From Dehalococcoidia bacterium (GTDB lineage: Bacteria; Chloroflexota; Dehalococcoidia; SpSt-223), in NCBI GenBank assembly GCA_025054935.1, contig JANWZD010000006.1:88228-152227 (forward strand): 64,000 nt of DNA, in the 5' to 3' direction. The notes under the pieces were generated by a model. The model ran no database searches. It saw nothing but the letters and a program-made list of their open reading frames with translations, and was not told where the DNA came from. Position 1 is the stretch's first letter. Every line of letters starts with the position of its first letter. The position numbers were made by a program, and so were the translations under genes. Shown here in pieces: positions 41,071-61,438 of the stretch.

Positions 41071-41822
41071 CTCCAACGCCCCGCGTGACCGGCGCCGTGA
41101 TCGCGCGCGACGAGGAGACAACTATCGCCGGCTGCCTCCGCAGCCTCGCCTGGACGGACGAGCTGCTGGTGATTGATAGCGGCAGCCGAGACCGGACGGT
41201 CGAGATCGCGCGCCGTAGCGGCGCGCGCGTTGAGCACCGCCCGTTCACCAACTTCGCTGAGCAGCGCAATGCCGCGCTCGACTGGGCGGAGACAGAGTGG
41301 GTCTTCTTTCTCGATGCCGATGAGCGGATTAGTCGGCAGCTCGCCGCCGAGGCGCGGGCCGCGCTCGAGCGGCCGGAGGCAGGGTTCTGGATCCCGCGCC
41401 GCAATATCATCCTCGGCCACCGGATGCGCGGCGGGGGCTGGTGGCCGGACAAGCAGCTCCGCCTGCTCCGTCGCGAGCGCGCGCGCTACGACCCAGCCCA
41501 GGGCGTTCACGAAGTCGCTCGCCTCGACGGTCCTGCTGGCGAACTGACGAGCCCGATCATCCACTACAACTATCGGCACCTCCGCCAGCTGTTCGTCAAG
41601 CAGTGGCGCTACGCCCAGCAGGACGCGCTCGACCGCGTTCGGCGTGGCGAGCGGGTGCGTCCGCATCATCTGCTCGCCCAGCCGGCGCGTGCCTTCCACC
41701 GGCGTTTCATCCAGTGGCACGGCTATCGCGACGGTCTCCTCGGCCTCTTCCTTGCCGGGCTGCTCGCTTGGTACGAGCTGGTAACGCTGCTTCTGGTGCG
41801 GCGCTTGGAGCAGAATGCCTGA
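41067..41822 (+). CDS. Family 2 glycosyltransferase (WaaE/KdtX-like)
   Basis: 251 residues. GAVIARDEETTIAGCLRSLA (9-28), VIDSGSRDRTVEIARRSGA, and FFLDADERIS with its DAD metal motif are typical of the WaaE/LPS-core beta-glucosyltransferase-like group. GGGWWPDKQLRLLRR and VHEVARLDG also fit. A hydrophobic segment near the C-terminus (LLGLFLAGLLAWYELVTLLL) may attach it to the membrane. It overlaps both neighbours, so order and level of synthesis are probably fixed by coupling. Confidence 0.88.
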   Translation: MTPTPRVTGAVIARDEETTIAGCLRSLAWTDELLVIDSGSRDRTVEIARRSGARVEHRPFTNFAEQRNAALDWAETEWVFFLDADERISRQLAAEARAALERPEAGFWIPRRNIILGHRMRGGGWWPDKQLRLLRRERARYDPAQGVHEVARLDGPAGELTSPIIHYNYRHLRQLFVKQWRYAQQDALDRVRRGERVRPHHLLAQPARAFHRRFIQWHGYRDGLLGLFLAGLLAWYELVTLLLVRRLEQNA

Positions 41823-42772
41823 TGACCCTCGATCTGTCGGTCGTGATCGTCAACTGGAACGTCCGCGACCTGCTCGACGCCTGCCTCGCCTCGCTCCACG
41901 GTCGCGCCGCTGATGATGCGCCGAACGAGATCATCGTCGTTGACAACGGCTCGCGCGACGGTTCCGTCGCGATGGTGAAAGCGCGCTATCCGGGTGTCCG
42001 GCTCATCGAAGCGCCGCACAACCCGGGCTTTGCGGGCGGTACGAACCTCGGGGCGAGCGTCGCCTCGGGCCGCGCCCTCTTTCTGCTCAATCCGGACACC
42101 GTCGTCGAACCGGGCGCGCTCCGGCTGCTGACGCGGGCGCTCCGCAACGACCCGACGCTCGGCGCGGTCGGGCCGCAGCTGATTGCAAGCGACGGCTCGA
42201 CACAGTCGTCGCGCCGCCGCTTCCCAACTCCGGCGACGCTCTTCGTTGAAAGCACGCCGCTGCAGGGCGCGCTGGCGCGCCGAGCGATCCGCCGCTACTA
42301 CTTCGATGACGTGCCGCCTTCCGCGCGCGCGCAGCCCGACTGGCTTGTTGGCGCGGCAGTGATGATCCGGCGGAGCGCCTGGGACGACGTTGGACCGCTC
42401 GACGAAGGCTACTTCATGTATTTCGAGGAGACGGATTGGTTCCGCCGGGCAGCCGCTCGGGGCTGGCGCGCCGCCTATATTCCCGAGGCGCGGGTCATCC
42501 ACCATTCCGGGAAGAGCAGCGAGCAGAACATCGCCGCCCGTCACCTTCGCTTCACGGCGAGCAAGCTGCGGTATGCCGAGCGCTATCACGGCACGGCCCT
42601 CGCCCGCGTCCTTGGGGTGTGGCTGCGGCTCCTCTTCCTCGAGCAGCTGGCCGAGGAAGCAGGAAAGTGGGTGCTCGGCCACAAGCGGCCGCTCCGCACT
42701 CGCCGGATCAGTGAACTCAGCCGCGTCGTGACGAGGCGATGGAGCCGTGAAGCGAGCGTCTCTGCTGGGTAG
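41822..42772 (+). CDS. Family 2 glycosyltransferase (rhamnosyltransferase-like)
   Basis: 316 residues. Close in plan to the GT2 at 40129: VVIVNWNVRDLLDACLASL, VVDNGSRDGS, PHNPGFAGGTNLG, the NPD motif, and FMYFEETDWFRRAAARGWR. HHSGKSSEQN replaces the HFGGQST of the first GT2, which may reflect a different acceptor. One-base overlap with the preceding stop. Probably adds a second or third sugar in the same chain. Confidence 0.88.
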   Translation: MTLDLSVVIVNWNVRDLLDACLASLHGRAADDAPNEIIVVDNGSRDGSVAMVKARYPGVRLIEAPHNPGFAGGTNLGASVASGRALFLLNPDTVVEPGALRLLTRALRNDPTLGAVGPQLIASDGSTQSSRRRFPTPATLFVESTPLQGALARRAIRRYYFDDVPPSARAQPDWLVGAAVMIRRSAWDDVGPLDEGYFMYFEETDWFRRAAARGWRAAYIPEARVIHHSGKSSEQNIAARHLRFTASKLRYAERYHGTALARVLGVWLRLLFLEQLAEEAGKWVLGHKRPLRTRRISELSRVVTRRWSREASVSAG

Positions 42773-42775
42773 CTG

Positions 42776-43948
42776 ATGGCAACCGTCTGCATGGTAACAG
42801 GCGAATACCCGCCGATGGTCGGCGGCATCGCCGACTACACGGCGCGGCTCGTCGCTGCGCTGCGGGAGAGTGGTGAGACTGTCGCGGTGCTGACCGACCG
42901 CCGGGCGCTCGCGAGCGGAGCGTGCCACGGGGTCGACGCCGTACCTGGCTGGGGGTTCCGCCGCCTTCCTGCCGTCATTCGCGCTATTCGCCGCCGCGCG
43001 CCCGATCTTGTCCATATCCAATATCAGGCCGCCGCCTACGCGCTGCGCGGCGCGATCAGCTTTCTTCCTGCGCTTCTCCGTCCCACCCCGTGCCTCACCA
43101 CCTTCCACGACACCCGCCAGCCGTATCTTTTCCCCAAAGCAGGGCCGCTCCGCCGCTGGGCAAACGCCGTCCTTGCCCGCGACTCGCGCGCCGCTCTCTG
43201 CACCAACGCCGCCGACTGGCAGGTCATCGCCGGCTACGGCCAGCCGCTGGTCCGCCTGATCCCGCTTGGGAACAATGTGCCCCGCCAGCCCGTGACCGCG
43301 CGCGAGCGGCAGGCGGCGCGGGCACGGCTCGGCGCGGATGAGAACGACCTGCTCGTCGGCCATTTCGGCCTGATGGGCGCAACAAAGGGCGTCGAGACGC
43401 TGATCGCGGCGGTGGCGGCGCTCCCCCGCGCTCGGCTCGCCTTCATCGGCGCAGCAGCAGGAGCGAGCGACCCTCAGAACGCGGTCGCGGCCGAACGCGC
43501 GCGGGCGGCGATCGCAGCGGCCGGGCTGGAGCAGCGCGTGGCGTGGTCGGGGAAGGTTCCGCTCGCCGAGCTGTCGCATCTCCTCCAAGCGTGCGATCTG
43601 GTTGTGCTCCCCTACCATGATGGCGCCTCGTTCCGGCGGACGACGCTGATCGCTGCGCTCGCGAACGGCTGTGCGACGATCACGACGGCGCCGCCGCCAG
43701 GGTCACGCGCCCTCGCCGCGGTCGCGGGACTGCCGGAGCTCCGCCATGGCGAGAACCTCTGGCTTGTTCCTCCCGGCGACCCGCGGGCGCTCGCCGAAGC
43801 GATCCGCTTTCTTGGCGAGCAGCCAGCAGCGCGAGCTCGGCTCGGCGAGGCAGCGGCGCGGGCAGCAGCCGCTTTCGATTGGAAGAGGATTGCCGAGCAG
43901 CATCGGCAGCTTTACCGAGAGACGCTCGGCGGGGACCGATATGATTGA
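42776..43948 (+). CDS. Family 4 glycosyltransferase
   Basis: 390 residues, GT-B fold. Donor and acceptor domain marks are GEYPPMVGGIADYTARLVAA (9-28), LVHIQYQAAAYALRG, and later GHFGLMGATKGVETLIAAVA and VVLPYHDGASFRRTTLIAAL. The usual ExxxxxxxE catalytic motif of GT4 is hard to place: the segment near GASFRRTTLIAALANG has no first Glu, which may mean altered chemistry. Starts 3 nt after the previous gene. Confidence 0.85.
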   Translation: MATVCMVTGEYPPMVGGIADYTARLVAALRESGETVAVLTDRRALASGACHGVDAVPGWGFRRLPAVIRAIRRRAPDLVHIQYQAAAYALRGAISFLPALLRPTPCLTTFHDTRQPYLFPKAGPLRRWANAVLARDSRAALCTNAADWQVIAGYGQPLVRLIPLGNNVPRQPVTARERQAARARLGADENDLLVGHFGLMGATKGVETLIAAVAALPRARLAFIGAAAGASDPQNAVAAERARAAIAAAGLEQRVAWSGKVPLAELSHLLQACDLVVLPYHDGASFRRTTLIAALANGCATITTAPPPGSRALAAVAGLPELRHGENLWLVPPGDPRALAEAIRFLGEQPAARARLGEAAARAAAAFDWKRIAEQHRQLYRETLGGDRYD

Positions 43949-46380: not shown

Positions 46381-47147
46381 CGACTGCCAAGCGACGGGCA
46401 GCCGCAGCCCGACAGGCGCGTCGAGGGCGCCATTGGTCGAACGTCATCCCAGCGATCCTGATCATCCTGCTTGTCGGTGCGCTGCCGCTCTGGCTGCTCG
46501 CCGGGCGCGTCGAACTGAGCGAACTGGCCGGCTCGACGGTGGGAGAAATCGCCGTCTCGGCGCAGCCGACGGTCCGCTTCGTCGGCGCAGCAGATGGTCT
46601 GCGCTGGGTCGACGTTCGCGCCCGGCCGGCCGAGAGCGCCCCGGCAGCCATCCGCACCACGCTGATCGACGAGCGTCAGCCGGAGCGCCCGGTCGCGCGG
46701 TGGACGGTGACCCTTACGGGGCCGGGACCAGTGTGGATGGAAATGCCCCCGATCGCCCGCTCGGCCGGTGTTCCGTATCGCGTCGTCGTCGAGCCGGCCG
46801 CACCGGAACAGCCGGAAGTGTTTCTCCGCCTCGTTCTTGATCGGGAAGGGCAGCCTATCGTCGCGGTCCAGCGGTTCTACCGCGTCTCGCCGCTCACGTG
46901 GCTTGTCGTCATGGGCTCGCGACTCAGCGAAGCCGGAACGCTGATCCCCGTCCTCGTTGCCGGCGGAGCCCTCATGACGCTGTTCTGTTCGATCTTCGGC
47001 CTGCTCCTCTGGCGCTTCGGGTGGCCGGGAGCGCCGAGCTGGACGCTGGTCGGGCTGCTCGCCGCCGCGTGGGGCGTCGTCGCCATCCACGCCGCTGCCT
47101 CGGCTCAACTCTGGGCCCAGCTCACCGTCGCCTGGCCGGACGGATGA
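46377..47147 (+). CDS. Three-span membrane protein of unknown function
   Basis: 256 residues. A basic N-tail, a helix at about 24-43, an outer beta-rich domain of about 140 residues (around RFVGAADGLRWVDVRARPAE), then two helices at about 190-212 and 222-240. It is not the shared module, but sits exactly between two proteins that carry it and overlaps both by 4 bp. I do not recognise a family. It could be a partner subunit of one of the transferases. Confidence 0.6.
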   Translation: MTTAKRRAAAARQARRGRHWSNVIPAILIILLVGALPLWLLAGRVELSELAGSTVGEIAVSAQPTVRFVGAADGLRWVDVRARPAESAPAAIRTTLIDERQPERPVARWTVTLTGPGPVWMEMPPIARSAGVPYRVVVEPAAPEQPEVFLRLVLDREGQPIVAVQRFYRVSPLTWLVVMGSRLSEAGTLIPVLVAGGALMTLFCSIFGLLLWRFGWPGAPSWTLVGLLAAAWGVVAIHAAASAQLWAQLTVAWPDG

Positions 47148-49804
47148 TGAGCGCTGCAGCGTCCCCGCGCACGGTGCCGGCCGAGACGGCGGTGGCGGCG
47201 CGCCGGCCGTCGAGCGTCGGCATCATCGCCTGGGCGGCGGTTGGGCTTGTTCTTGCCGGTTTTGCGCTGCGGATCGTCGCGACGGGGGAGCCCTCCTACT
47301 GGGGCGACGAGATGGTGAGCGTCACCGTGGCGCGGATGCCCGCCGCGGCGATCCCCGGCTGGCTCGCCGAGAACGACCCCCACCCGCCGCTCTATTACCT
47401 CGCGCTCCACGGCTGGGTGCGCCTCGCCGGCGAGCGCGAGCTGGCGACCCGGGCGCTCTCGGCGCTGCTGGGCGCGCTCGCGATCCCGCTCGTCGGCGCG
47501 CTCGCCCGGCGGCTGCTCAGCCCGGCTGCCGCGGTTGTCGCGATGACCCTGATCGCCCTGAACCCGCTCCAGGTCGATCAAGCGCGCGACGCCCGCATGT
47601 ATCCCCTCCTCGTGGCACTCACCCTCGGCGCGACCCTTGTCCTCTGGCGGCAACTCAGCCGGCCAAGCGTCGCCGGCTGGACGGCCTACGCCCTTTTGGG
47701 TGCGGCAGCGCTCTACACCCACTACTACGGCGGACTGGCGCTGATCGCCCACGGCCTGTGGGTGCTGACGCTGCTCCCCGCAAACCGCCGCATCGTGCTC
47801 CAGTTCGCCGCTGCTGGGGCAGGGATCACGCTGCTCTACCTCCCGTGGCTGCTCCCTGGCCTCATCGTCATTACGGCGTACGAGGGATACGGCTGGGCGA
47901 CCGGCGAGAGCGGCATCGGGTCGTGGCCGCAGGCAGTGGCACGCTGCCTGCAGGTCTTCCTCACCGGGCCATGGACCCCTGATGCGCCGTGGAACAGCGT
48001 CGCCGCCGGTTTCGCGGTAGCGCTCGCTGCCGGCGGAGCGGTCGCCGCCTTCCGCTGTGACCGCCGCGCCGCGCTGCTGCTGACGCTGCTGCTGCTCGTT
48101 CCCATCACGATCATCTATGTCGCCTCGCTCCAGCGGCCGCTCTTCATGCCCCGCTATCTGATCATCGCCAGCCCCGCCTTTCTGCTACTTGCTGCCGCCG
48201 TGATCGCGGCACTGCGCGGCTGGCTCGCGCCGGCGGGTGTCGCCCTTGCTGCGAGCGTCTTGCTCGTTCAGGGGGTGGGGGTCGACCGCCTGCTCACCGA
48301 TCCCCGCTATGCCAACGCCGATTGGCGCGCTGCGGCGCGCTTCGTCGCGGCGCGCGAGCGCCCGAATGACGGCATCGTCTACGGTCACGACGGCATGAAA
48401 TGGCTGTTCGGCTTCTACCATCCTGGCGGGCCTGGGGAGTATATCCCGCCCTTCGCGGGGAAAGAGCGGCGGCAGGAGATCGAGGAAATGCTGCGGCGCT
48501 TCACTGCCGTTCACGAGCGCGTCTGGTTCGTGCCGTGGTGGAACAGCGACACCGACGTCATAGTCGAGCGCTGGCTGACGGACAATGCGTATCTCGCGCT
48601 CGACCGCTGGATCGACCGCAGTGTCCGACTCCTCCTGTTTGCCTCCCCAAGCGGCACCGCGCCGCTGCAGCCGAGCGGCACCGCCTTCGGCGGCATCCTC
48701 CAGCTTGACAGCTGGGCAATCGACCGGACCACAGCGAGCCAAGGCGACGTGCTGCGCGTTGACCTTCGCTGGATGGCGCTCGAGCCAGTCGAGGAGGAGG
48801 TTCGCCGGCTGCTCGTGCTCCGCGACCGCGCGGGGCGCCGCTTTGCCGTCAGCGACCGCGCCCCGCGCAACGCCCCGACCGCCGGCTGGCCCAAGGGGCG
48901 CGCCTTGACGGACCGGGTCGGGCTGCTCGTTCCGCCGGGAACGCCGGCGGGCGAATATGAACTGGCGGTCGGCCTCTACGCCGCTGCGACCGGCGCGCCG
49001 CTCGTCCCGACTGCCCCCGCGCCGGGCGGACTGCTGCGGCTGGGGACTGTTCGCGTCAGTGCCGAGACGCCGCGCTTCGACCCGGCCGCGGTCGATGCCG
49101 ACCGACCGCTTGCCATTGAGGTGGAGCCCGGCATCCGTCTCGTCGGGGTGAGCGTGGCGCCCGGCCCGCGCCGCCAAGGCGACCGGCTCGAGATCACGAC
49201 CTTCTGGCAGCCGCTCGCCGACGGGGCCGCAGCGACGATCCGCCTCGGCCTTGCCGACCGCGCCATCGCGAGCCGCGTCGGCGGCCTGCCCGCTGGCGCG
49301 GTCGAGCGGCGCGACCTTACGCTGCGCGTTCCGCCAACCCTCCCTCCCGGGCGGTACGCGCTCTGGGTCGCCGGCGAGGGCAGCCGGGTCACCATCGAGA
49401 CGATCGAGGTTGTGGCGGCGCCCCCTCTGCCGGCCCCCGCGCCGCCTGCCCAGATCATTGAGGCGCGGTTCGGCGACATTGCGACCCTCGTAGGCGCGAC
49501 GATCCGGCGCGAGGGCGGGGCGACCGAGGTGCGGCTGCTCTGGCAGGCCGAGCGCGAGGTCGACCAGGAACTGGCCGTCTTCGTCCACCTGCTCGACGAG
49601 GCCGGCCGGATCGTCGCCCAAGCGGACGGCCTGCCGGCGAACGGCGCTGCCCCGACCAGCCGCTGGACGCCGGGGCTGCGCTTCGACGACATCCGCCGGA
49701 TCGCCTCGGATGCGCCTGGGCGGATCATCGTCGGACTCTACGACCCCGCGACCCTTGAGCGCGTGCCGACGGGCAGCGGCGACAGCGTGCAGGTTGCGCC
49801 GTGA
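47144..49804 (+). CDS. GT39 membrane glycosyltransferase with the long C-terminal half shared with the SpeE-like proteins
   Basis: 886 residues from the first of two adjacent ATGs. GT39 marks: GEPSYWGDEMVSVTVARMP (about 43-61) with the catalytic acid pair, DPHPPLYYLALHGWVRLAG, and LIALNPLQVDQARDARMYPL. About ten membrane segments end near residue 380. The soluble part starts with ERPNDGIVYGHDGMKWLF (about 404-421) and has VWFVPWWNSDTDVIVERWL. Three shared modules follow (515-886). This whole C-terminal half closely matches that of the three following proteins. It should transfer a sugar from a lipid carrier outside the membrane. Confidence 0.82.
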   Translation: MMSAAASPRTVPAETAVAARRPSSVGIIAWAAVGLVLAGFALRIVATGEPSYWGDEMVSVTVARMPAAAIPGWLAENDPHPPLYYLALHGWVRLAGERELATRALSALLGALAIPLVGALARRLLSPAAAVVAMTLIALNPLQVDQARDARMYPLLVALTLGATLVLWRQLSRPSVAGWTAYALLGAAALYTHYYGGLALIAHGLWVLTLLPANRRIVLQFAAAGAGITLLYLPWLLPGLIVITAYEGYGWATGESGIGSWPQAVARCLQVFLTGPWTPDAPWNSVAAGFAVALAAGGAVAAFRCDRRAALLLTLLLLVPITIIYVASLQRPLFMPRYLIIASPAFLLLAAAVIAALRGWLAPAGVALAASVLLVQGVGVDRLLTDPRYANADWRAAARFVAARERPNDGIVYGHDGMKWLFGFYHPGGPGEYIPPFAGKERRQEIEEMLRRFTAVHERVWFVPWWNSDTDVIVERWLTDNAYLALDRWIDRSVRLLLFASPSGTAPLQPSGTAFGGILQLDSWAIDRTTASQGDVLRVDLRWMALEPVEEEVRRLLVLRDRAGRRFAVSDRAPRNAPTAGWPKGRALTDRVGLLVPPGTPAGEYELAVGLYAAATGAPLVPTAPAPGGLLRLGTVRVSAETPRFDPAAVDADRPLAIEVEPGIRLVGVSVAPGPRRQGDRLEITTFWQPLADGAAATIRLGLADRAIASRVGGLPAGAVERRDLTLRVPPTLPPGRYALWVAGEGSRVTIETIEVVAAPPLPAPAPPAQIIEARFGDIATLVGATIRREGGATEVRLLWQAEREVDQELAVFVHLLDEAGRIVAQADGLPANGAAPTSRWTPGLRFDDIRRIASDAPGRIIVGLYDPATLERVPTGSGDSVQVAP

Positions 49805-49847: not shown

Positions 49848-52800
49848 ATGACTGTCGCTCCCCGCGAAACTTCTTGGCCTCGCGCCGCGAGTGTCGCCCC
49901 TTCCTTCCAGCGCGCTTTTCCCCTCCTGCTGACGTTCAGCCTCGTTCTGACAGGCGCGAGCGGGCTGATCTATCAGGTAGTCTGGTTCCGCACTCTCGGC
50001 TTGACCTTTGGGGTAACGGTTCAGGCGACAAGCGCCGTGCTCGCCGCCTTCATGGCCGGCCTCGCGATCGGCAGCCTCCTGATGGCGCGCTATGGCGGCC
50101 GCATCGCCAATCCGTTGCGCGCCTATGCCGTCGCCGAGATCGTCATCGGGCTGGCCGGCTTCGCCAGCCTCTGGGCGCTCGACGCCCTCCAGCCGCTCTA
50201 CCGCTGGTTTGCGATGACCGTTACCGACTCGCTCCCCGTGCTCACCACCGCCCGCTTTGCGCTCGCTTTTCTGATCATGCTGATCCCGACTACCCTGATG
50301 GGCGCAACGCTGCCGCTCGTCGTCAAAGCGACAGCACTTCGCTCCGGGTTCGCGGCGAGCCACGTCGGACTGCTCTACGCGGGCAACACGGCTGGCGCAA
50401 TTGCCGGAGCGTTCTTCGCCGGCTTTTACCTCATCGGCCTCTCTGGCCTGACAACGACGACCGCGATTGCCGCAACACTTAACCTCGCCGTCGGCGTCGC
50501 GTGGCTAGGCGCTTCGCGGGGAAAGCATGCTGCCTCCACCGAAAGACCGCGCGCTGCGGTGAGCGCCTCACGAGACGCTGCCTTTCCGCCGCCCCTCGTT
50601 GGAGCCGTCGTTGCCGTCTACGGCCTCTCCGGCTTCATTGCCCTTGCCTATGAAGTGGTCTGGGTGCGGGTGCTGGCCGGCATCTTCCCCGGCACGGTCT
50701 ACGCCTTCACCCTGATGCTCTGCGCCATTCTCTTCGGGATCGCGGCGGGAAGCTGGCTGATCTCGCCGCTGCTGCACCGCCGCTGGAACTGGCCGCTCAT
50801 CTTCGCCGCTCTTGAAGGGCTGCTCGGGCTGCTCGGTCTGCTCTCGATCGCTGTCCTCGCCAACGCCTACAGCATCGAGCGAACCGTGCGCGCCTTCGTC
50901 GGGCAGCGCGACCCGCTGCTCGGCGAGCCGTGGTTCATGGCAGGCTTCGGGCTCGTCGCGCTCGGTCCGGCCGCGCTGGTAATGGGCGCCCTCTTTCCAG
51001 TGGCAGCGAAGATTGTCGGAACGGGGCATCCCGACGCGGGGCGGCGGGTCGGGCTCGTCTACGGCGCGAACGTGCTCGGCGCGATCGCCGGGTCACTGGC
51101 AGGAGGCTTGATCTTGATCCCGCTGCTGGGAGCGCAGCGCACCCTCTGGCTGCTCGCGGCGGGCAACCTCCTCGCCGGAGCAGCAGTGCTCGCGTTCGCT
51201 CCAGCGCCCCTGAAGCGAAAGGCAGCCTTCGGCGGCGCAGCGGCAGCAGTCGCCCTCGCCGCCGCGCTCCTGACACCCGACTTGTACGGGACCTTGTTCG
51301 CAACCATCCCGTGGAACGAGCGCACCATCTGGTATCACGAAGGGCAAGACGCGACGGTACGCGTTGCAGACTCGCTCGCCGACGGAACGCGGGTGCTCTA
51401 CATCAACAGCGAGCATCAAGGGACCGATCGCGGGAGCGGGCTCCAGTTTCACTATCGGCTCGGCCATCTCGGCTCGCTCCTCCATCCCGAGCCGCGGGAC
51501 GTGCTGGTGATCGGCATGGGGGTGGGCGCGACGCCGGGCGCTGCCGCGCTCTACCCCGAATCGCGCGTCCGAGTGGTCGAGCTGTATCCCGGCGTCGTCG
51601 AGGCGGCGCGCCTCTTTCGCCACATCAACTACGACGTCCACCGCCGGCCGAATGTCGCGATCGAGGTGAACGACGGACGGAATTTCCTGCTCCTCAGCCG
51701 CCAAAAGTTCGATGTCATCCAAGCGGACCCCATTCTGCCGACGAATGCCGGCGCGGCCAACCTGTACTCGACCGACTACTACAAGCTGGCCCGAAGCGCC
51801 CTGAACGACGACGGGCTGATGGTCCAATGGCTGACGAACACCCTGCCCGGCGCGGCCTATCGGATGCTCTTACGCTCGTTTCTCGACGCTTTCCCCTACG
51901 CAACCCTCTGGCATAACGGCGCGATCCTCGTCGGCTCGCCGCAGCCGATTGTGCCCGACCCGGAGGCGATCGCCCGCAAGTTCAACCACCCCGAACTGCG
52001 CCAGGCGCTCGCCGCCCTTGGCTATACCAACGCCAGCGAGGTGCTCCGCGATTTCACTGCCGGCCCCGACGACCTGTGGGCCTTCGCGGGGGCCGGTCCG
52101 CAGGTAACCGACCGGTTCCCAGCCGTCGAGTACATCCGGACCGTGCCGTTCGAGGGGCCAGGCGCAACGCCGCAGTGGGCACGAGCCGCGCGCTATATCG
52201 AGCTGCGCCAGGGGCCGAATGACGGCATCGTCTACGGCGCGGGCGACGTCCGGGAGCGGCTGCGCGAGTATTACCGCGGGACGCTGTCCGAGTTCATCCT
52301 GCCGCCGACCGTTGAAGGACGCGAGCGCGCTCTCGAGGCGGACCTCCGCCGCTTTGCCGAAGGCAAGGAGGGGATCTGGCTAGTGCCGTGGTGGCAGAGC
52401 GACAGCGATGTGCTCGCCGAGGCGGTCTTGAACGGCAGCGCCTATCTGATTGCAGACCGCTGGCTTGGCGGCGTGCGCGTCCTCCGCTACGCCGGCCCCG
52501 CCTCGCTCCCCCTGCGGCCGGCGGATGTCAGCTTCGGGGATACCGTCCGGCTGCGCGGCTGGGGTATCGAGCGCGAGCAGGCAGCGGCGGGCGAAGCCGT
52601 TCGGGTAGCGCTCGAGGTCGAGGCGCAGACGGATATCCGCGAGAACATCAAGGCCTCGCTCCGCCTTGTCGATCGCAGCGGCCGGGTGCTCGCGGAAGTC
52701 GACCGGCTGCCGCGCAACGCGCCGATTGAGGAGTGGCGGCGCGGTCAGCGGGTCGTCGACCGGATTGGACTGCTCATTCCCCCGGGAACGCCGGCCGGCG

Positions 52801-53684
52801 ACTACCGCCTCGACCTGACCTACTATCGCGAGGCGACGGGCGGACCGCTGCCCGCCGCCGGAGGCGATGCCGCCGGCCGGGTCACCCTTGCCTCGTTCAC
52901 CGTGCTTCCTGATGCGCGGCCGTTTCCGGCCGGCGCCATCGAGGCGAACACCCCGCTCATCGTCCGCTACGGTCCGGCGCAACTGGTCGGCTACTCGCTC
53001 TCGCCGGCAACGCGCCGTCCCGGCGATCTGGTGCCGGTGACCCTCTTTTGGCAGCCGCTCGACCGCGCCGCCCGTCCCCCCGCCCGCCTTCTCTTCGGCG
53101 ACCCAAGCGCGCCGCTCACCGCTGCGACACTGCCTGCGGGGAGCGCGCGCGAGCCGGGCACAATCGAGCGGGTGGATCTCGCGCTGCGGATCCCGCCGAC
53201 TGCCGCCGCAGGGCGCTACGGCGTCTGGCTGATCGTCGAGCAGGCAGGGTCGGCGCCGCTGCGGCTTGGGACCGTGCCGCTCATCCCATGGCCGCCCCTC
53301 CCTGCCCCGGCGCCGCCGGCGCTGGCAGTCGGCGCGCGATTTGGCGACATTGCCACCCTCGACGGCCTGACCGCGCAGCGTGACAGCGCCGGCCTCCTTC
53401 TCGACCTCGTCTGGACGCCCGAACGGGACATCGCGCGCAGCTACCTTGTCTTCGTCCACGCCCTCGATGCCGAGGGACGGATCGTCGCTCAGTCAGACCG
53501 GGTGCCGGCAGACGGCGCGGCCCCAACGACAAGCTGGGTGCCGGGACGGCAAGTCGGCGACCGCCACCGCCTTGCCCTCGCCCCTCCGGCCGACGGGGCG
53601 ATCGCGATCGGCCTCTACGATCCGCTGACCGGCGAACGCGTCGCCGTCGGCGGAGAGAGCGCGGTTCGGCTGCCGCCCCCCTAG
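49848..53684 (+). CDS. Fused MFS-like / spermidine-synthase-like / GT39-tail membrane protein, paralogue 1
   Basis: 1,278 residues. Residues 24-480 hold about 13 membrane segments in two similar halves, opened by TGASGLIYQVVWFRTLG and YGLSGFIALAYEVVWVRVLA. A SpeE-type SAM fold follows: DVLVIGMGVGATPG (about 551-564), VVELYPGVVEAA, DGRNFLLL (about 609) and QADPILPTNAGAANLYS (about 624). The typical DSTDP polyamine motif is altered. From about 787 (GPNDGIVYGAGDVRERL) to the end it matches the GT39 neighbour, ending in three shared modules. TAGATT 10 nt before the ATG may be a -10 element. Reaction unknown; polyamine or other alkyl transfer is possible. Confidence 0.78.
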   Translation: MTVAPRETSWPRAASVAPSFQRAFPLLLTFSLVLTGASGLIYQVVWFRTLGLTFGVTVQATSAVLAAFMAGLAIGSLLMARYGGRIANPLRAYAVAEIVIGLAGFASLWALDALQPLYRWFAMTVTDSLPVLTTARFALAFLIMLIPTTLMGATLPLVVKATALRSGFAASHVGLLYAGNTAGAIAGAFFAGFYLIGLSGLTTTTAIAATLNLAVGVAWLGASRGKHAASTERPRAAVSASRDAAFPPPLVGAVVAVYGLSGFIALAYEVVWVRVLAGIFPGTVYAFTLMLCAILFGIAAGSWLISPLLHRRWNWPLIFAALEGLLGLLGLLSIAVLANAYSIERTVRAFVGQRDPLLGEPWFMAGFGLVALGPAALVMGALFPVAAKIVGTGHPDAGRRVGLVYGANVLGAIAGSLAGGLILIPLLGAQRTLWLLAAGNLLAGAAVLAFAPAPLKRKAAFGGAAAAVALAAALLTPDLYGTLFATIPWNERTIWYHEGQDATVRVADSLADGTRVLYINSEHQGTDRGSGLQFHYRLGHLGSLLHPEPRDVLVIGMGVGATPGAAALYPESRVRVVELYPGVVEAARLFRHINYDVHRRPNVAIEVNDGRNFLLLSRQKFDVIQADPILPTNAGAANLYSTDYYKLARSALNDDGLMVQWLTNTLPGAAYRMLLRSFLDAFPYATLWHNGAILVGSPQPIVPDPEAIARKFNHPELRQALAALGYTNASEVLRDFTAGPDDLWAFAGAGPQVTDRFPAVEYIRTVPFEGPGATPQWARAARYIELRQGPNDGIVYGAGDVRERLREYYRGTLSEFILPPTVEGRERALEADLRRFAEGKEGIWLVPWWQSDSDVLAEAVLNGSAYLIADRWLGGVRVLRYAGPASLPLRPADVSFGDTVRLRGWGIEREQAAAGEAVRVALEVEAQTDIRENIKASLRLVDRSGRVLAEVDRLPRNAPIEEWRRGQRVVDRIGLLIPPGTPAGDYRLDLTYYREATGGPLPAAGGDAAGRVTLASFTVLPDARPFPAGAIEANTPLIVRYGPAQLVGYSLSPATRRPGDLVPVTLFWQPLDRAARPPARLLFGDPSAPLTAATLPAGSAREPGTIERVDLALRIPPTAAAGRYGVWLIVEQAGSAPLRLGTVPLIPWPPLPAPAPPALAVGARFGDIATLDGLTAQRDSAGLLLDLVWTPERDIARSYLVFVHALDAEGRIVAQSDRVPADGAAPTTSWVPGRQVGDRHRLALAPPADGAIAIGLYDPLTGERVAVGGESAVRLPPP

Positions 53685-53718
53685 CCTCCTCCGCCGGGAT
53701 ACGCTACCGTTCCGCGCG

Positions 53719-56700
53719 ATGTTCAGCCGGGCTCCACGCCGGACATACGGTATGGTGTCCACGAGCACTCTGCTCCGGACGGCCCTGCCGTGGCTGCTGG
53801 CGCTCTCACTCATCGCCACCGGCGCAAGCGGCCTCATCTACCAGGTAGTCTGGTTTCGCCTCCTCGGCACGATCTTCGGCGTCACTGTCCAAGCGACAAG
53901 CGCCGTGCTCGCTGCCTTCATGGCCGGCCTTGCGCTTGGGAGCTTTCTCGCCGCCCGCGTTGCCGACCGCCTGCGCGACCCACTCCGCGGCTATGGTCTT
54001 GTTGAGATCGGGATCGGAATAGCAGGGCTCGCCAGTCTGCCGTTGCTCGACGGGCTGCAGCCGCTCTACCGCTCTACGGCCAGCGTGCTCGGCGAAGGCA
54101 ACCCGCTCCTGATCGGCCTGCGCTTCGCGCTCGGCTTTCTCGTCATGATGATCCCCACGACCCTCATGGGAACGACGCTTCCGCTGGTCGTGCGGGCATC
54201 GGCGCTCCATTCCCCTGCCGTCGCCCGCAACATCGGCCTGCTCTACGCCGGCAACACCTTGGGCGCGATCGTTGGCGCGTTCACCGCCGGTTTCTTCCTG
54301 ATCGGGGTCTACGGGCTGACGGTAGCAGTTGCAGTCGCCGCCGCCTTCAACATCGGTATCGGGGTGACCTGGGCGGTCGCGGCGCGCGGGCTCGAGCCGT
54401 TGGCACCGCCGCCCGAGACGGGCCGCGCCCCGGCGCTGCCAGATCCCCTCCGCCCGAACCAGACGCTCGCCAATGTCGTGCTCGGCACCTACGCCCTCTC
54501 CGGCGCCACCGCGCTCGCCAACGAAGTGATTTGGACGCGGGTGCTCTCCGGCATTTTCCCGGGCACGGTCTACGCCTTCACCCTGATGCTCTGCGCGATC
54601 CTCGCCGGGATCGCGCTCGGCAGCTGGCTTGTCACGCCTTTCCTCCAGCGCGCCCGCAACTGGGCGCTGGTCTACGCCGGCTGCCAGCTGGGGCTTGCCG
54701 TCACTGCTCTTCTGTCGATCGCAACGCTCGCGAGCGCGTTTCAGCTGGAAGGCCTGCTTGGCCAGCTCCTAGGAGTGAGTGGAGGGCTGCTCCTCGAAGA
54801 GCCGGCGGTGATGGCGCTGATTGCATTCGCGGCGATCGGTCCAGCGGCGATTGCGATGGGGGTGACGTTTCCCGTTGCAGCCCGGCTCTACGCCTCGACC
54901 AGCAGCCGCCTTGGAGACCGGGTGGGCCGAATCTACGGCGCGAACACGCTCGGCGCGATTGCTGGGTCGCTTGCCGGCGGTCTGATCCTCATCCCGCTCG
55001 TCGGCGCAGAGCGAGCCCTCTGGCTGACGGCGCTGGGCAACGCCGTCATCGCGCTCCTCGTTCTCGGTGTCGCGCCCGGCCAGCGGCGAGTGCGGGCCGC
55101 AATCGCCCTCGCCGGAGCCGTCTCGCTCGCCGGCACGGCGCTGCTGACGCCGAGCCTCTACGCCAAGCTGTCTGCAACCGACCCGCGCGGCGAGCGCACC
55201 ATCTGGCTTGCTGAAGGGCCAGATGCCACGGTGCGTGTCGTTCGCAATCCGAGCCAGCAGCAAATCCTCTACATCAACAGCGAAGGCCAAGCGAGCGACG
55301 ATGAGAAGATCCTCAGCTTTCACTACCTGCTCGGCCACCTCGGGCTGCTGCTGCATCCGCGGCCGCGCGACGTGCTCGCGATCGGCCTCGGCGGCGGCGC
55401 GACGCCGGGGGCAGCGGCGCTGCACGAGCGCGCCACGGTCACGGTGGTCGAGCTGTATCCCGGGGTTATCGAGGGAGCGCGGTTCTTTCGCGAGGTGAAC
55501 TTTGGGATCCACGACCGGCCGAATGTGCGCATGATTGTCAATGATGGGCGCAACTTCTTGATGTTCCGCGAGCGGGAGTACGATGTGATCGTCGCCGACA
55601 TCATTCGCGCCAAGAATGCGGGCGCAGCGAACCTCTACTCTGCCGATTACTACCGGCTCGCTCGCCAAGCGCTGCGCGACGACGGCATGATGGTGCAATG
55701 GATCGACGACACGCTGCCCGAATACGCCTACAAACTGATGGTCCGCACCTTTCTCACCGTCTTTCCGGAAACGACCATGTGGTTTAACGGCTCGGTGCTG
55801 ATCGGCACGAAGCAGCCGCTTCGGCTCGACCGCCTGACCGTTGAGGAGAATCTGCAGCAGCCCGGTCCGCGCCAGCATCTCGCGCGGCTCGGCTTCCACA
55901 ACAGCTACGACGTGCTCCGCGAGTATGTCGCCGGGCCCGACGAGATTCGCGCCTATGTCGGCGAGGGACCGATTATCACTGACCGCCATCCGTCCATCGA
56001 GTTCATGCGCACCCTGCCAACGGACGGCGGCGTCGCCGACTTGCGCTGGGAGCGCGTCGCTCGCTTTGTCGCGGCGTTCGAGGAGCCGACTGACGCCGCC
56101 GTCTTCACCCATGCCGGAGTTCGCTGGCAGTTTCACCGCTACCACCGCGAGATGGCTGCCGAATATCAGGCCCCCTGGCCGCTCAATGGACGCAACGCGG
56201 AGGTGGCGCGCGAACTGCAGCGTCTGCTCGACCGGCACCGGCGGGTCTGGTATGTGCCGGCGTGGCAGAGCGACAGCGATATCTTCGTCGAGCGGTGGCT
56301 TAGTGCCGCCGCCTACCGTGCCCTCGACACCGCACTCGGCAACACGCGCGTTCTGCTCTTCCTGTCCGCGGCTGGCGAGCCCGCTCCTCAGGCGCGCCGA
56401 GCTGAGTTCGGCCAGCGCATCCGCTTGACCGCATGGGCTATCGACCGGACAGAACTGGCGCCAGGCGAGTTTGGACGCATCCTCCTCGACTGGGAGACGA
56501 TCGCCCCGCTCGATGACAACTACAAGACGAGCCTCCGCCTTGTTGATGAGCGTGGTCGGCTGATCGCCGAGGTGAACCGCCAGCCGCGCGATCAGGAGTC
56601 TGCCGGGCTCGGCGCCGGCTTCCGCTGGCGCGAGCGGACCGCCCTGCTGATCCCGCCGGGCACGCCGCCCGGCGACTACCGGCTGGAGACGTCGGTCTAT

Positions 56701-57567
56701 CGCGAGGACGACGGCCAGCCTCTTCGGCCGACGGCGGGCGCAGCTGACGGGCGCGTCATCCTCGGCCGACTGACCGTGCGCCCGAGCGACCGCGCCTTCG
56801 CGCCAGAAGCGATCGTCGCCGACACCCACCCTCGGCTTGTCCGGGCAGGGCTTCGCCTTGCCGGACTGTCGATCAGCACGCTGACCGCGCGGCCCGGCGA
56901 CCTTGTCGGCCTAACCACCTTCTGGCAGCCGGTCGAGCCGGACGCAGCGGCGACGCTGAAGATTGTGCTCGGCGAGCCGGCTCGGCCTCTCGCGCAGCTC
57001 GATCTCCGCGTCGGCGAAGCCGGTCGTCCTGTCGGCACGGTGCAGCGCCTCGACCGCGACCTGCGCATTCCCCCGGCGACCCCGCCAGGACGCTATGACC
57101 TTTGGCTTGCTGACGGCGGCCAACCGGCTTGGCTGGGACGCCTCGCCGTTGTGGCACGCCCCCCCTTGCCACCCCCCTCCCCTCCCGCGATCACCTTGAA
57201 TGCGCCCGTCGGCGATTTTGCCACCCTCATCGGCGCCACCGTGACGGCGCAGAGCGACCGCCTCGAAGTCCGTCTGGTGTGGCAGGCACGGAAAGAGACC
57301 GAGCGCAATGCCACCGTCTTTGTCCACGTGCTTGACGCCGCAAACCGGATCCTGACCCAGTCTGACCAGCTTCCTGCCGGCGGAGCCGCCCCGACAACGG
57401 CTTGGCTGCCCGGCCAAGCAATTGAGGATCTCCATCTGCTGCGGATCGGGGAGATCCCTCCCGAGAGCCGCGTCATCGTCGGGCTGTATGACAGTGCCAC
57501 TCTCATCCGCTTTCCCATCGGGGAAAGCGACTTCGTGGTCCTGCCTTGGCCATCGCTAGCCGGCTGA
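53719..57567 (+). CDS. Fused MFS-like / spermidine-synthase-like / GT39-tail membrane protein, paralogue 2
   Basis: 1,282 residues; an alternative ATG at 53752 would remove a short tail. Same architecture as its two neighbours: 13 or so membrane segments (TGASGLIYQVVWFRLLG, YALSGATALANEVIWTRVL), the SAM fold with GLGGGATPGAAALHERA (about 552) and VADIIRAKNAGAANLYS (about 624), and the shared C-terminal half (HRRVWYVPAWQSDSDIFVER) with three modules. The SAM loop differs from its paralogues in having Ile where they have Pro after the acidic residue. Probably produced as part of one long transcript or from its own promoter. Confidence 0.77.
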   Translation: MFSRAPRRTYGMVSTSTLLRTALPWLLALSLIATGASGLIYQVVWFRLLGTIFGVTVQATSAVLAAFMAGLALGSFLAARVADRLRDPLRGYGLVEIGIGIAGLASLPLLDGLQPLYRSTASVLGEGNPLLIGLRFALGFLVMMIPTTLMGTTLPLVVRASALHSPAVARNIGLLYAGNTLGAIVGAFTAGFFLIGVYGLTVAVAVAAAFNIGIGVTWAVAARGLEPLAPPPETGRAPALPDPLRPNQTLANVVLGTYALSGATALANEVIWTRVLSGIFPGTVYAFTLMLCAILAGIALGSWLVTPFLQRARNWALVYAGCQLGLAVTALLSIATLASAFQLEGLLGQLLGVSGGLLLEEPAVMALIAFAAIGPAAIAMGVTFPVAARLYASTSSRLGDRVGRIYGANTLGAIAGSLAGGLILIPLVGAERALWLTALGNAVIALLVLGVAPGQRRVRAAIALAGAVSLAGTALLTPSLYAKLSATDPRGERTIWLAEGPDATVRVVRNPSQQQILYINSEGQASDDEKILSFHYLLGHLGLLLHPRPRDVLAIGLGGGATPGAAALHERATVTVVELYPGVIEGARFFREVNFGIHDRPNVRMIVNDGRNFLMFREREYDVIVADIIRAKNAGAANLYSADYYRLARQALRDDGMMVQWIDDTLPEYAYKLMVRTFLTVFPETTMWFNGSVLIGTKQPLRLDRLTVEENLQQPGPRQHLARLGFHNSYDVLREYVAGPDEIRAYVGEGPIITDRHPSIEFMRTLPTDGGVADLRWERVARFVAAFEEPTDAAVFTHAGVRWQFHRYHREMAAEYQAPWPLNGRNAEVARELQRLLDRHRRVWYVPAWQSDSDIFVERWLSAAAYRALDTALGNTRVLLFLSAAGEPAPQARRAEFGQRIRLTAWAIDRTELAPGEFGRILLDWETIAPLDDNYKTSLRLVDERGRLIAEVNRQPRDQESAGLGAGFRWRERTALLIPPGTPPGDYRLETSVYREDDGQPLRPTAGAADGRVILGRLTVRPSDRAFAPEAIVADTHPRLVRAGLRLAGLSISTLTARPGDLVGLTTFWQPVEPDAAATLKIVLGEPARPLAQLDLRVGEAGRPVGTVQRLDRDLRIPPATPPGRYDLWLADGGQPAWLGRLAVVARPPLPPPSPPAITLNAPVGDFATLIGATVTAQSDRLEVRLVWQARKETERNATVFVHVLDAANRILTQSDQLPAGGAAPTTAWLPGQAIEDLHLLRIGEIPPESRVIVGLYDSATLIRFPIGESDFVVLPWPSLAG

Positions 57568-57595
57568 TCAGGGGTCTGCTATAACTCGCGCCTGA

Positions 57596-60500
57596 ATGGA
57601 ACTCGCGAAGACGCCGGCACGCAGCAGTCTGCTGACAGGAGCGGCTGGGCTCGTCGGCCTGCTCGTCCTCTCCCTCATCCTGAGCGGCGCAAGCGGCCTC
57701 ATCTATCAAGTCATCTGGTTTCGCGTTCTCGGCCTCATCTTCGGGGTGACGGTGCACGCGACAAGCGCCGTGCTCGCCGCCTTCATGGCTGGCTTGGCGG
57801 TCGGCAGCGTTCTCGCCGGCCGCTTTGCCGACCGCATGAAGCGCCCCCTCCTTGCCTACGGCATCGTCGAGATCGCTATCGGGGTCTTCGGGCTCGGCAG
57901 CCTGTGGGCATTCGACCTGCTCCAGCCGATCTACAAGGCGCTTGCGCTTTCAGTGACCGATTCCGTGCTGGTGCTCTCGGTCATTCGCTTCGTCCTTGCC
58001 TTTCTGATCATGCTCCTCCCCACAACGCTGATGGGCGCCACGATGCCGCTTGTCGTCCGCTCGTCGCTTCTGCGGGCGGGCAGCTTGTCGCGCAATGTAA
58101 GTCTCCTCTACGCCGCCAACACCTTCGGCGCAGTGGCCGGCGCCTTCACGTCGGCGTTCTACTTGATCGGCTGGTACGGCGTCACCGCGACGACAGCGAT
58201 TGCCGCCGGGATCAACCTCCTCGTCGGAGGGCTGTGGATCGCGCTCTCCCTCGCTGCTCCCCGCGAGACTGAAGCTGCGCCGCCGAATGTCGACGCAGTG
58301 GCAGAGCTCCGTCCGAGCGAGCGGATCTCCCCCGCAACGGCGCGCTTGGTGCTCATCGTCTACGGCCTGTCCGGCGCGATCGCTCTCGCCTATGAGGTTG
58401 TCTGGACGCGTCTCCTCGCCGGGATCTTCCCGAGCACGGTCTACGCCTTCGCGATGATGCTGTGCGCCATTCTCAGCGGGATCGCCCTCGGCAGCTGGGC
58501 AGTGAACGGCATCATCACCCGGCGCGCGAACTGGCTGTTCTGGTTCGCCATCCTCGAGGTCGCCCTCGGCCTGACCGCCGTCCTCTCCCTCACCGCCATC
58601 GCCCACGCCTATCGCGTCGAGGGGCTGGTGCGCGGCTGGCTCGGCTGGACGGCGGAGACGCTCGTTGTCAACGAGCCGTGGTTCATGCTGGCATTCGCTT
58701 TCTTCTGCATCGGGCCGACGGCCTTCCTCATGGGCGTCACCTTTCCCGTCGCGACCAAGCTGTATGCGAGCGGCTTCACCGATGTCGGCCGGCGGGTCGG
58801 CACAATCTACGGCGTCAATGTGCTCGGCGCGCTCGCCGGTTCGCTCGGCGGAGGATTGGTCCTGATCCCGCTGCTCGGCGCTCAGCGCGCCCTCTGGGCG
58901 CTCGCGATCGGCAACGCCCTGCTTGGGGTTGGGATTCTGCTCGCCACCCCCGAGCGCGTCAGACCGCGCCTCGCTGTCGCTGCGGCGAGCGCGGCGCTCT
59001 TTCTCCTGCTCGCGTTCCTCTCGCCCGATGTCTACCGCACGCTCTTCTCGACCGACCCCCAAACAACCGAGACGATCTGGTTCCACGAAGGGCAGGACGC
59101 TAACGTCCGGGTAGCGCGCGACCTTGAGGGCAACCTCGTCCTCTTCACCAACAGCGCCGGACAGAACAATGACTCGCGGGCGGAAGCAGTCTTCCACTAC
59201 CAGCTTGGGCTGCTTGGTCCGCTGCTCCACCCCAATCCGACCGAGGTGCTCGTCGTCGGGCTGGGGGTTGGACAGACCGCCGGCGCAGCGTCGCTCCACC
59301 CCGGAACGCGCACCACCGTTGTCGAGCTGCTGCCGGGAGTGATCGAGGCGGCGCCCCTGTTCAGCCATGTCAACTTCAATCTGCATCAGAACCCTGCCGT
59401 CACCATCGTCGCCGCCGACGGGCGCAACTTCCTGCTCCTTGCCGGCCAGCGGTTTGATGTCATCGAGTCTGACCCGATTTGGCCCACCCACGCCGGCGCG
59501 GCGAACCTCTATTCAGTCGACTACTACCGCCTCGCCCGCCAAGCGCTGAAGGACGACGGCATCATGGTCCAATGGGTAGACGCTTCGCTGCCCGAGCACG
59601 CCTACAAGATGATGGTGCGCTCGTTCTACGAGGTGTTCCCCGAAGCGACGATGTGGTATCACGGCACGATCCTCGTCGGCGCGAAAGGGCCGCTGCGGCT
59701 CGACTACGACGCGATCGAGGCAAAATTTCAGCATCCCCGTCTTCGGGCAGTGCTGGACGACTTGGGCATTCGCGGGGTCAACGACCTGATGCGCGAATTT
59801 GTCGCGCGCCCGGAAGAAGTGCGCGCATTTCTGGGGCCGGGCCCGGTCATTTCGGACCGCTATCCCGTCATCGAGTACATCAACAGCATTCCCTCCGGAA
59901 CGCTTGGCGCCGACCTGCGCTGGCGGCGCGTCGCCTCCTACATCTCGGCGCGCGAACGGCCCGACGATGCCATTGTTTTCAGCGAAGCGTCGGTGGCCCG
60001 ACTCTTCCGCTCCTTCCACGCCGCCAAGCTGGCCGAGTACTATCCGCCGAGCGGCGTCGCCGGCCGCGAGAGCGAGGTCGCTGCGGCGCTCAAGGCGCTC
60101 CTCGACCGGCATGAGCGGCTCTGGTTCATCCCTTGGTGGCAGAATGAGAACGACCAGTTCTTCGAGCGCTGGCTCAACGGCAATGCCTACCAAGTGTCGA
60201 ACCGGCTGATCGGCAACATCCGCGTCCACCTCTATGCGAGCGCGCGCGGTGAGCCGGCGCTCCAGCCGTCGCGTCTCGACTTCGGCAACACGATCCGCAT
60301 TGTCGGCTGGGCGGTTGACCGGCGCGAGCTGAGCGTAGGCGACATCCTTCGCGTGGCGCTCCACGTCGAAGCGCTGCAGGATCTCGACAGTGACGTCAAG
60401 ATCGCCGTCCGCCTGATCGGGCCGACCGGACAGGTCGTTGCTGCCTCTGACCGGCTCCCGCGCGACGCGCCGACGTCCTCGTGGAAGGCCGGGACGCGCG

Positions 60501-61438
60501 TCCTCGACCGGATCGGCATCCTCATCCCGCCGGGAACGCCGGCAGGGCGCTATCGTCTCGACCTCGATCTCTACCGTCCAGCGGATGGCAGCCGGCTGGT
60601 GCCTGCCGCCCCGAACGCGCCGGGACAGCGCGTCCTTCTTGGCGACGTCACGGTCCTAGAGACGACCCGTCTCTTCCCAGCTGAAGCTGTCGAAGCGGCG
60701 GCCCTTTCGAGCGCAACATTCGGCGACGCTGTCCGCCTTGCCGGCTTCACCCTCGACCTCGCTCCGCGCCGGCCGGGCGACGAGATCGAAGCGGCACTCT
60801 ACTGGCAGCAGCTCGCCGACGGCGCAACGCGGACAGTCCGGCTCGTGGTCGGCAGCCCAGAGCGTCCCGCGGGCGCCGCCGAGCTTGATGTGGGACGGCG
60901 AGACAGCCGAGCCGGCACGATCAGCCGCCAAGACGGGCGGGTGCGGGTGCGCCCGGGGACGCCGTCCGGCCGCTATGACGTCTGGATCGTCGACCGGGCG
61001 GCCCCCGACAACCGAGAATGGCTCGGCCGCGTCGACATCATCGCGCCGCCGCCCCTGCCTGCTCCCGCTCCTCCTGAGATCCCCCTCGGGGCGCACTTCG
61101 GCGAGTTGATCGCCCTCGAGGGGCTTTCGATCCGCCGCGAGGGCGCAGACCTTGCCGTGACGCTGGTTTGGCGCGCGGAGCGCGACGTGCCGACGAACTA
61201 CGTCGTCTTTGTCCACTTGCTCGACGAGCGCGGAACGATTGTGGCCCAGTCGGACCAGCCGCCGGCAGCAGGCGGAGCGCCGACCGGCGGATGGCTGCCC
61301 GGCCAACGCATCGGCGACCTCCACCGTCTCCGCGCCGACCCTGCCGGCGCGCGCCTTGCGGTTGGGCTTTATGACCCCCGAACCGGGCAGCGGCTCCCGA
61401 CCGCCGAAGGCGATGCCGTCGTGCTCCCGCTCCCCTGA
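57596..61438 (+). CDS. Fused MFS-like / spermidine-synthase-like / GT39-tail membrane protein, paralogue 3
   Basis: 1,280 residues. Opens with SGASGLIYQVIWFRVLGLIF and a second-half copy YGLSGAIALAYEVVWTRLLA. SAM fold: GLGVGQTAGAASLHPG (about 552), VVELLPGVIEAA, ADGRNFLLLAGQRFDVIESD and SDPIWPTHAGAANLYSVDYY. C-terminal half: ERLWFIPWWQNENDQFFERW and three modules ending in the GLYDPRTGQRLPT type. TATAAC ends 10 nt before the ATG. The SAM-loop Asp is preserved, but other substrate residues differ from bona fide SpeE. It is the end of the cluster. Confidence 0.77.
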   Translation: MELAKTPARSSLLTGAAGLVGLLVLSLILSGASGLIYQVIWFRVLGLIFGVTVHATSAVLAAFMAGLAVGSVLAGRFADRMKRPLLAYGIVEIAIGVFGLGSLWAFDLLQPIYKALALSVTDSVLVLSVIRFVLAFLIMLLPTTLMGATMPLVVRSSLLRAGSLSRNVSLLYAANTFGAVAGAFTSAFYLIGWYGVTATTAIAAGINLLVGGLWIALSLAAPRETEAAPPNVDAVAELRPSERISPATARLVLIVYGLSGAIALAYEVVWTRLLAGIFPSTVYAFAMMLCAILSGIALGSWAVNGIITRRANWLFWFAILEVALGLTAVLSLTAIAHAYRVEGLVRGWLGWTAETLVVNEPWFMLAFAFFCIGPTAFLMGVTFPVATKLYASGFTDVGRRVGTIYGVNVLGALAGSLGGGLVLIPLLGAQRALWALAIGNALLGVGILLATPERVRPRLAVAAASAALFLLLAFLSPDVYRTLFSTDPQTTETIWFHEGQDANVRVARDLEGNLVLFTNSAGQNNDSRAEAVFHYQLGLLGPLLHPNPTEVLVVGLGVGQTAGAASLHPGTRTTVVELLPGVIEAAPLFSHVNFNLHQNPAVTIVAADGRNFLLLAGQRFDVIESDPIWPTHAGAANLYSVDYYRLARQALKDDGIMVQWVDASLPEHAYKMMVRSFYEVFPEATMWYHGTILVGAKGPLRLDYDAIEAKFQHPRLRAVLDDLGIRGVNDLMREFVARPEEVRAFLGPGPVISDRYPVIEYINSIPSGTLGADLRWRRVASYISARERPDDAIVFSEASVARLFRSFHAAKLAEYYPPSGVAGRESEVAAALKALLDRHERLWFIPWWQNENDQFFERWLNGNAYQVSNRLIGNIRVHLYASARGEPALQPSRLDFGNTIRIVGWAVDRRELSVGDILRVALHVEALQDLDSDVKIAVRLIGPTGQVVAASDRLPRDAPTSSWKAGTRVLDRIGILIPPGTPAGRYRLDLDLYRPADGSRLVPAAPNAPGQRVLLGDVTVLETTRLFPAEAVEAAALSSATFGDAVRLAGFTLDLAPRRPGDEIEAALYWQQLADGATRTVRLVVGSPERPAGAAELDVGRRDSRAGTISRQDGRVRVRPGTPSGRYDVWIVDRAAPDNREWLGRVDIIAPPPLPAPAPPEIPLGAHFGELIALEGLSIRREGADLAVTLVWRAERDVPTNYVVFVHLLDERGTIVAQSDQPPAAGGAPTGGWLPGQRIGDLHRLRADPAGARLAVGLYDPRTGQRLPTAEGDAVVLPLP

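Follow-up and report, generated by a model that had tools for sequence, protein, structure and literature searches.

Three tandem MFS/spermidine-synthase fusions with a GT39-type tail in a Chloroflexota glycosyltransferase locus, with a predicted role outside the cytoplasm

We found three consecutive forward-strand genes (F1–F3) encoding large membrane proteins in a 64,000-nucleotide window of a contig from a Dehalococcoidia bacterium (genome G000, 3.57 Mb in 93 contigs): F1 (49848..53684, 1278 aa), F2 (53719..57567, 1282 aa) and F3 (57596..61438, 1280 aa). Their frames are intact and co-directional, with gaps of only 34 and 28 bp between them, and their GC content per codon position is that of real genes. 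They share 49–51% pairwise identity over the full-length alignment and one common architecture, namely a 12-helix MFS fold, a 13th helix, a spermidine-synthase (SpdSyn) fold, an α/β lid and three Ig-like β modules. The preliminary description, which had recognized three tandem genes of these lengths and a single architecture, is thus borne out by the open reading frames and the alignment. That the three frames are an artefact of assembly or of frame calling is next to impossible, even with a genome assembled as 93 contigs: the same three genes occur in the same order in two other assemblies (61–84% identity), and dN/dS is about 0.1 (0.09–0.12 overall for the G000 versus G002 orthologues). We rule out an assembly artefact on the strength of these orthologous tandem sets.

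The genes lie at the end of a glycosyltransferase run on the same strand, which comprises two GT2 glycosyltransferases (39949..41070 and 41441..42772), a Glycos_transf_1/Glyco_transf_4 glycosyltransferase (42776..43948), a TMEM260-like protein (PF11028; 43945..46380, start uncertain) with two related β modules and a GT39-type protein (PMT_2; 47144..49804, start inferred at 47144), which ends 43 bp before F1. In G000 and G002 the conserved order is GT2-GT2-GT4-TMEM260-GT39-F1-F2-F3, followed by a YfhO/PTPS-like gene on the opposite strand and a fourth paralogue (F4); G001 has the same order from GT39 to F4, its contig beginning inside the GT39 gene. F4 lies past the window end (G000:C6:154517-157051; L013:2886-5615), combines the SpdSyn-like domain with the lid, is devoid of β modules and has orthologues in G001 and G002. 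A shorter family member lacking the lid is encoded on contig C2 of G000. The gene between F3 and F4 (window 62358-63998, reverse strand, running past the window end) encodes a PTPS-related/YfhO-like membrane protein with the same β modules; it is present at this position in all three species and codes for about 1000–1100 aa. Elsewhere in the window, a DUF2079 membrane protein (15554-17548, reverse strand) ends in one copy of the same β module, and a PMT_2 protein (20942-23515, reverse strand), adjoining an EPSP synthase gene (19611-20924), displays the lid with two related β modules.

The N-terminal 770 residues of F1–F3 can be assigned by profile matches to the already named but uncharacterized family of fused MFS/spermidine synthases (NF037959), which they match at 103–134 bits against a curated cut-off of 40 bits. 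The MFS profile PF07690 is matched at E=6e-4, below its own cut-off, and the spermidine synthase profile PF01564 at E = 6e-13 to 4e-16; the spermidine-synthase-like domain had been noticed from the letters of the sequence, as had about 13 membrane segments in two similar halves, and we recovered 13 hydrophobic segments with halves 31–33% identical to each other. An AF2 model of F3 residues 1–892 (79-row alignment, pLDDT 90.8) predicts a complete 12-helix MFS fold for residues 14–454 (57635..58957, +), with SLC37A4 as a close structural match (9w1r, Z 32.3, 369 aligned, rmsd 3.3; VIA), followed by a hydrophobic 13th helix at residues 455–475 (58958..59020, +), seen in both the model and the hydrophobic segments and predicted to exit the cytoplasm. 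Residues 485–767 (59048..59896, +) form the SpdSyn-like domain, which is modeled with a fold close to the Thermus aminopropyltransferase (1uir, Z 29.1, 274 aligned, rmsd 3.0; VIA) and displays the GxGxxT motif, E577, D608 and D626, with no Asp of the GGGDGG type. By alignment to F3, the MFS and SpdSyn parts of F1 span residues 1–479 and 480–767. A PMT match, the mark of a GT-C membrane core (PMT/PMT_2), was not obtained in F1–F3, which feature the MFS fold in its place.

The SpdSyn-like domain departs from SpeE in its active site. The acidic residue of the GGGDGG-type motif in SpeE holds the aminopropyl amine. The equivalent position (558) is acidic in none of the 76 family members, whereas the acid is kept both in the genome's own soluble SpeE and in its 7-TM SpeE. 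The second acid of the catalytic loop (DxxDP) is likewise nearly always replaced, including in F1–F4, and the first is present in 58/76 members, F1–F3 included, with F4 also displaying a D. Acids occupy the ribose position E577 and position D608 in all 76 members, and the ribose and adenine acids are kept in F1–F4. Judged by these motifs, the domain, although conserved and likely to bind a nucleoside-like ligand, fails two defining features of SpeE. The soluble SpeE adjoins SpeD elsewhere in the genome, which indicates that dcSAM is made and that spermidine synthesis does not depend on the fusions.

The C-terminal ~490 residues were described beforehand as ending in three β modules, and an AF2 model of the F3 tail (residues 768–1280, pLDDT 93) resolves them into a lid and three such modules. 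The predicted α/β lid (residues 774–884; 59915..60247, +) shares homology with the stretch that follows the last TM helix in the adjacent GT39-type protein; downstream of it are β modules 1 (residues 890–1027; 60263..60676, +), 2 (1028–1150; 60677..61045, +; AF2) and 3 (1169–1280; 61100..61435, +). The corresponding borders in F1, from alignment to F3, are 772–886 for the lid and 890–1028, 1029–1150 and 1160–1278 for the modules. In a fold comparison of the tail that barely covered the lid, the modeled β module 1 came closest to the Wzt C-terminal O-antigen-binding domain (Z 9.4–10.4) and the FN3 folds of the biofilm protein RbmA (Z 10.6), with matches to 7k2t (Z 10.2), 2r5o (Z 9.4) and 4kkp (Z 10.6), and β module 3 an Ig-like domain of GH2 enzymes (6b6l, Z 10.8, 96 aligned). 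The Wzt-C and RbmA matches extend over 110–131 residues at Z 9.4–10.6 and Ig-like folds are common; a Z of about 10 to such folds is no proof of sugar binding. The F1–F3 tails show no Pfam match of the Wzt-C/RbmA type above cut-off, related tails show weak sub-cut-off matches to Wzt_C and RbmA-like FnIII, and a sequence search of the PDB with the tail returned no match, the ArnT C-terminal domain included.

The label 'GT39 tail' given to this region at the outset proves literal: over ~490 residues the F1–F3 tails align with the C-terminus of the adjacent PMT_2 protein at 42–43% identity (E about 1e-97 to 1e-105). In a tree, they group with the adjacent GT39 tails in a single clade (100/100) that excludes four other GT-C tails, a pattern in keeping with local recruitment between neighbors; the tree is compatible with transfer in either direction between the GT39 protein and the fusion. 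Across the class, PMT_2 proteins carry tail-like segments, as do other membrane proteins resembling glycosyltransferases. The tail, which had been deemed unfamiliar, is thus not new in itself and can be recognized from these homologies as a common extension of Chloroflexota GT-C enzymes; with its occurrence on PMT_2 proteins being common and on others established, we rule out a tail of unknown origin.

What is new is the combination of MFS-SpdSyn with the GT39 tail. The earlier impression of an unfamiliar fusion is supported for this union, which among the genomes sampled we found in a single genus. With a query spanning the SpdSyn-like domain and the lid, both were recovered in one match in this genus only, among overlapping samples of 393 genomes of the class and 400 of the phylum; in other sampled genomes, the matches cover one half of the query, either SpdSyn or lid. 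Similarly, among the best 78 loci of a species-level genome collection the tail is found only on same-genus contigs. A widespread fusion is hence ruled out for the sampled Chloroflexota and these 78 loci. Within the genus, the survey proposed in the preliminary description reveals the fusion to be both recurrent and syntenic: F1–F3 have 1:1:1 orthologs across three species with conserved order, a pairing which implies that the duplication is older than the species split. In each of F1, F2 and F3, constraint is stronger on the SpdSyn part (dN/dS 0.03–0.07) than on the MFS part. F1–F3 are accordingly a genus-restricted architectural variant, under selection, of a known uncharacterized family. 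In the wider family, mostly from other phyla, C-terminal extensions match TPR_2 in 35/52 cases. Long extensions are also borne by further MFS/SpdSyn proteins of Chloroflexota, namely G709:C147 (open frame of 1839 aa), G059:C99 (1163 aa) and G040:C11 (1386 aa). G002 contains one more fusion copy (C7:1681-6008; L134), split over three frames and probably a pseudogene. We set aside the N-terminal extension of L083, as this reading lies upstream of the start and is probably non-coding.

Several lines of evidence bear on the side of the membrane on which the soluble part resides. Even-numbered loops, which are inside if the N-terminus is inside, contain more K+R than odd-numbered loops in 76/76 family members (mean 23.0 vs 4.25), and the loop preceding helix 13 is also positive. 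Both ends of MFS cores are cytoplasmic. Helix 13 follows such a core in these proteins and is a hydrophobic stretch of 21 residues, so the rest of the chain should be outside; with no helix between the SpdSyn-like domain and the lid, both must lie on one side. Thus, 13 helices with the N-terminus inside strongly predict that the SpdSyn-like domain, the lid and the β modules are all extracytoplasmic. The loop charges of the adjacent GT39-type protein, whose helix borders are rough, fit the same orientation with the last helix leading out, and ArnT combines 13 TM helices with a periplasmic domain (PMC7801869). Our main doubt about sidedness comes from a membrane SpeE with seven helices encoded in the same genome (G000:C1:577438; L015:1158-3158), which has the same odd helix count and intact SpeE active-site acids: by the same reasoning it too would be placed outside, where dcSAM is not expected. 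Either it does lie outside or its last helix does not cross, so that the extra helix of the fusions might not span the membrane. The cysteine content of the SpdSyn domain gave no pointer to sidedness.

We lean, with slightly better than even confidence, towards the view that F1–F3 are fused MFS/SpdSyn proteins that have exchanged their customary C-terminus for the extracytoplasmic tail of a GT39-type protein, and that they act outside the cell on a surface glycan. Under this proposal, the tail, comprising the lid and three Ig-like modules, would take the place of TPRs or of nothing, and the fusion would have been ancestral to one genus and then duplicated before the species split. The MFS core might move a lipid/glycan intermediate across the membrane, or else a cytosolic donor, perhaps one bearing a nucleoside (e.g., SAM or dcSAM); the SpdSyn-like domain could then bind this molecule outside, and transfer a group from it or process it, while the lid and β modules might hold the surface-glycan acceptor or dock beside glycosyltransferases. 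We infer the donor, acceptor and reaction from the architecture and its context. Put differently, the proteins are best read as membrane-embedded group transferases of the extracytoplasmic side, or as transporters with a processing domain, stationed beside glycosyltransferases and directed at a surface glycan. The modification of a surface polymer, suggested earlier from the location of the genes, is plausible in light of the conserved GT2-GT2-GT4-TMEM260-GT39 neighbors and the Wzt-C/RbmA-like modules. Two further points count against an outside-acting enzyme: the invariance of the nucleoside-binding acids is more readily understood for a cytosolic domain, and Wzt-C, to which β module 1 comes close in fold, has its function in the cytoplasm.

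In an unlikely alternative, the SpdSyn-like domain stays in the cytoplasm, helix 13 being re-entrant or surface-bound, and transfers aminopropyl or methyl groups from cytosolic dcSAM or SAM while tethered to the membrane; the tail would then serve as a cytosolic docking module. The invariant ribose and adenine acids, the presence of SpeD and SpeE to make dcSAM and the 7-helix SpeE with its intact active site and odd helix count are all in keeping with it; it has to contend with the positive-inside pattern in 76/76 members and the K/R ahead of helix 13, the two inside ends of the MFS core followed by 21 hydrophobic residues, the extracytoplasmic placement of the same tail on GT39-type proteins and the loss of the GGGDGG Asp. 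The loss of aminopropyl recognition could also mean that the SpdSyn-like domain is a non-catalytic ligand sensor or scaffold. The protein would then be a glycan-precursor transporter or flippase of the MFS type, linked by its tail as an adaptor to the neighboring glycosyltransferases. This reading, which we hold to be rather improbable, draws on the complete MFS fold and on the presence of the first catalytic-loop acid in only 58/76 members, but sits poorly with purifying selection that is stronger on the SpdSyn part (dN/dS 0.03–0.07) than on the MFS part, and with the retention of the ribose, adenine and first catalytic acids in F1–F4. A bolder generalization, which we regard as quite a long shot, is that the whole MFS/SpdSyn family consists of trans-membrane group transferases, with the MFS part feeding a nucleoside-bearing donor (SAM- or dcSAM-like) to an outside SAM-fold domain that decorates surface glycans, the acceptor being held here on the glycosyltransferase-derived tail.

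Fused MFS/spermidine synthases are found in many bacterial phyla, and their naming as polyamine enzymes rests on homology; we found no characterized member in the literature searched, which took in few subscription papers. The fusions described here amount to a natural experiment, in which the extracytoplasmic tail of a glycosyltransferase has been joined to a SpdSyn-like domain with no membrane helix in between. In combination with the 13 helices and the loss of the SpeE aspartate, this helix-free junction speaks against the family being a polyamine synthase and for its action outside the cell, with glycans as the probable target. Their main value is hence the added evidence on the side of the membrane where the MFS/SpdSyn family works.

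With respect to known systems, F1–F3 share the membrane MFS part, helix 13 and the SpdSyn-like domain with the NF037959 (MFS_SpdSyn) family, whose other members stop after the SpdSyn domain or bear TPRs, whereas F1–F3 bear the GT39-type lid and three β modules. Conversely, they share the whole C-terminal ~490 residues with the Chloroflexota GT39/PMT_2 GT-C enzymes, but have MFS and SpdSyn parts instead of the GT-C core. The likeness to SpeE is confined to the fold of the central domain (1uir, Z 29.1) and the ribose and adenine acids; unlike SpeE, the family of F1–F3 is membrane-bound, lacks the GGGDGG Asp (76/76) and has almost always lost the second Asp of DxxD. In AT3-SGNH acyltransferases, an extra helix puts the transferase domain outside and the donor passes through the membrane core (PMC9833829). 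The likeness to these enzymes (e.g., OafB, OatA and PglI) would be one of logic only, namely a donor-handling membrane core, an extra helix and an outside transferase acting on glycans; their folds are unrelated to those of F1–F3 and their donor is acyl-CoA, and we claim no family membership. TMTC-type GT-C proteins, in which an odd number of helices puts the lumenal C-terminal TPRs outside the cytosol (PMC7801869), differ in having a GT-C catalytic core, and their TPR tails parallel those of the MFS-SpdSyn-TPR proteins.
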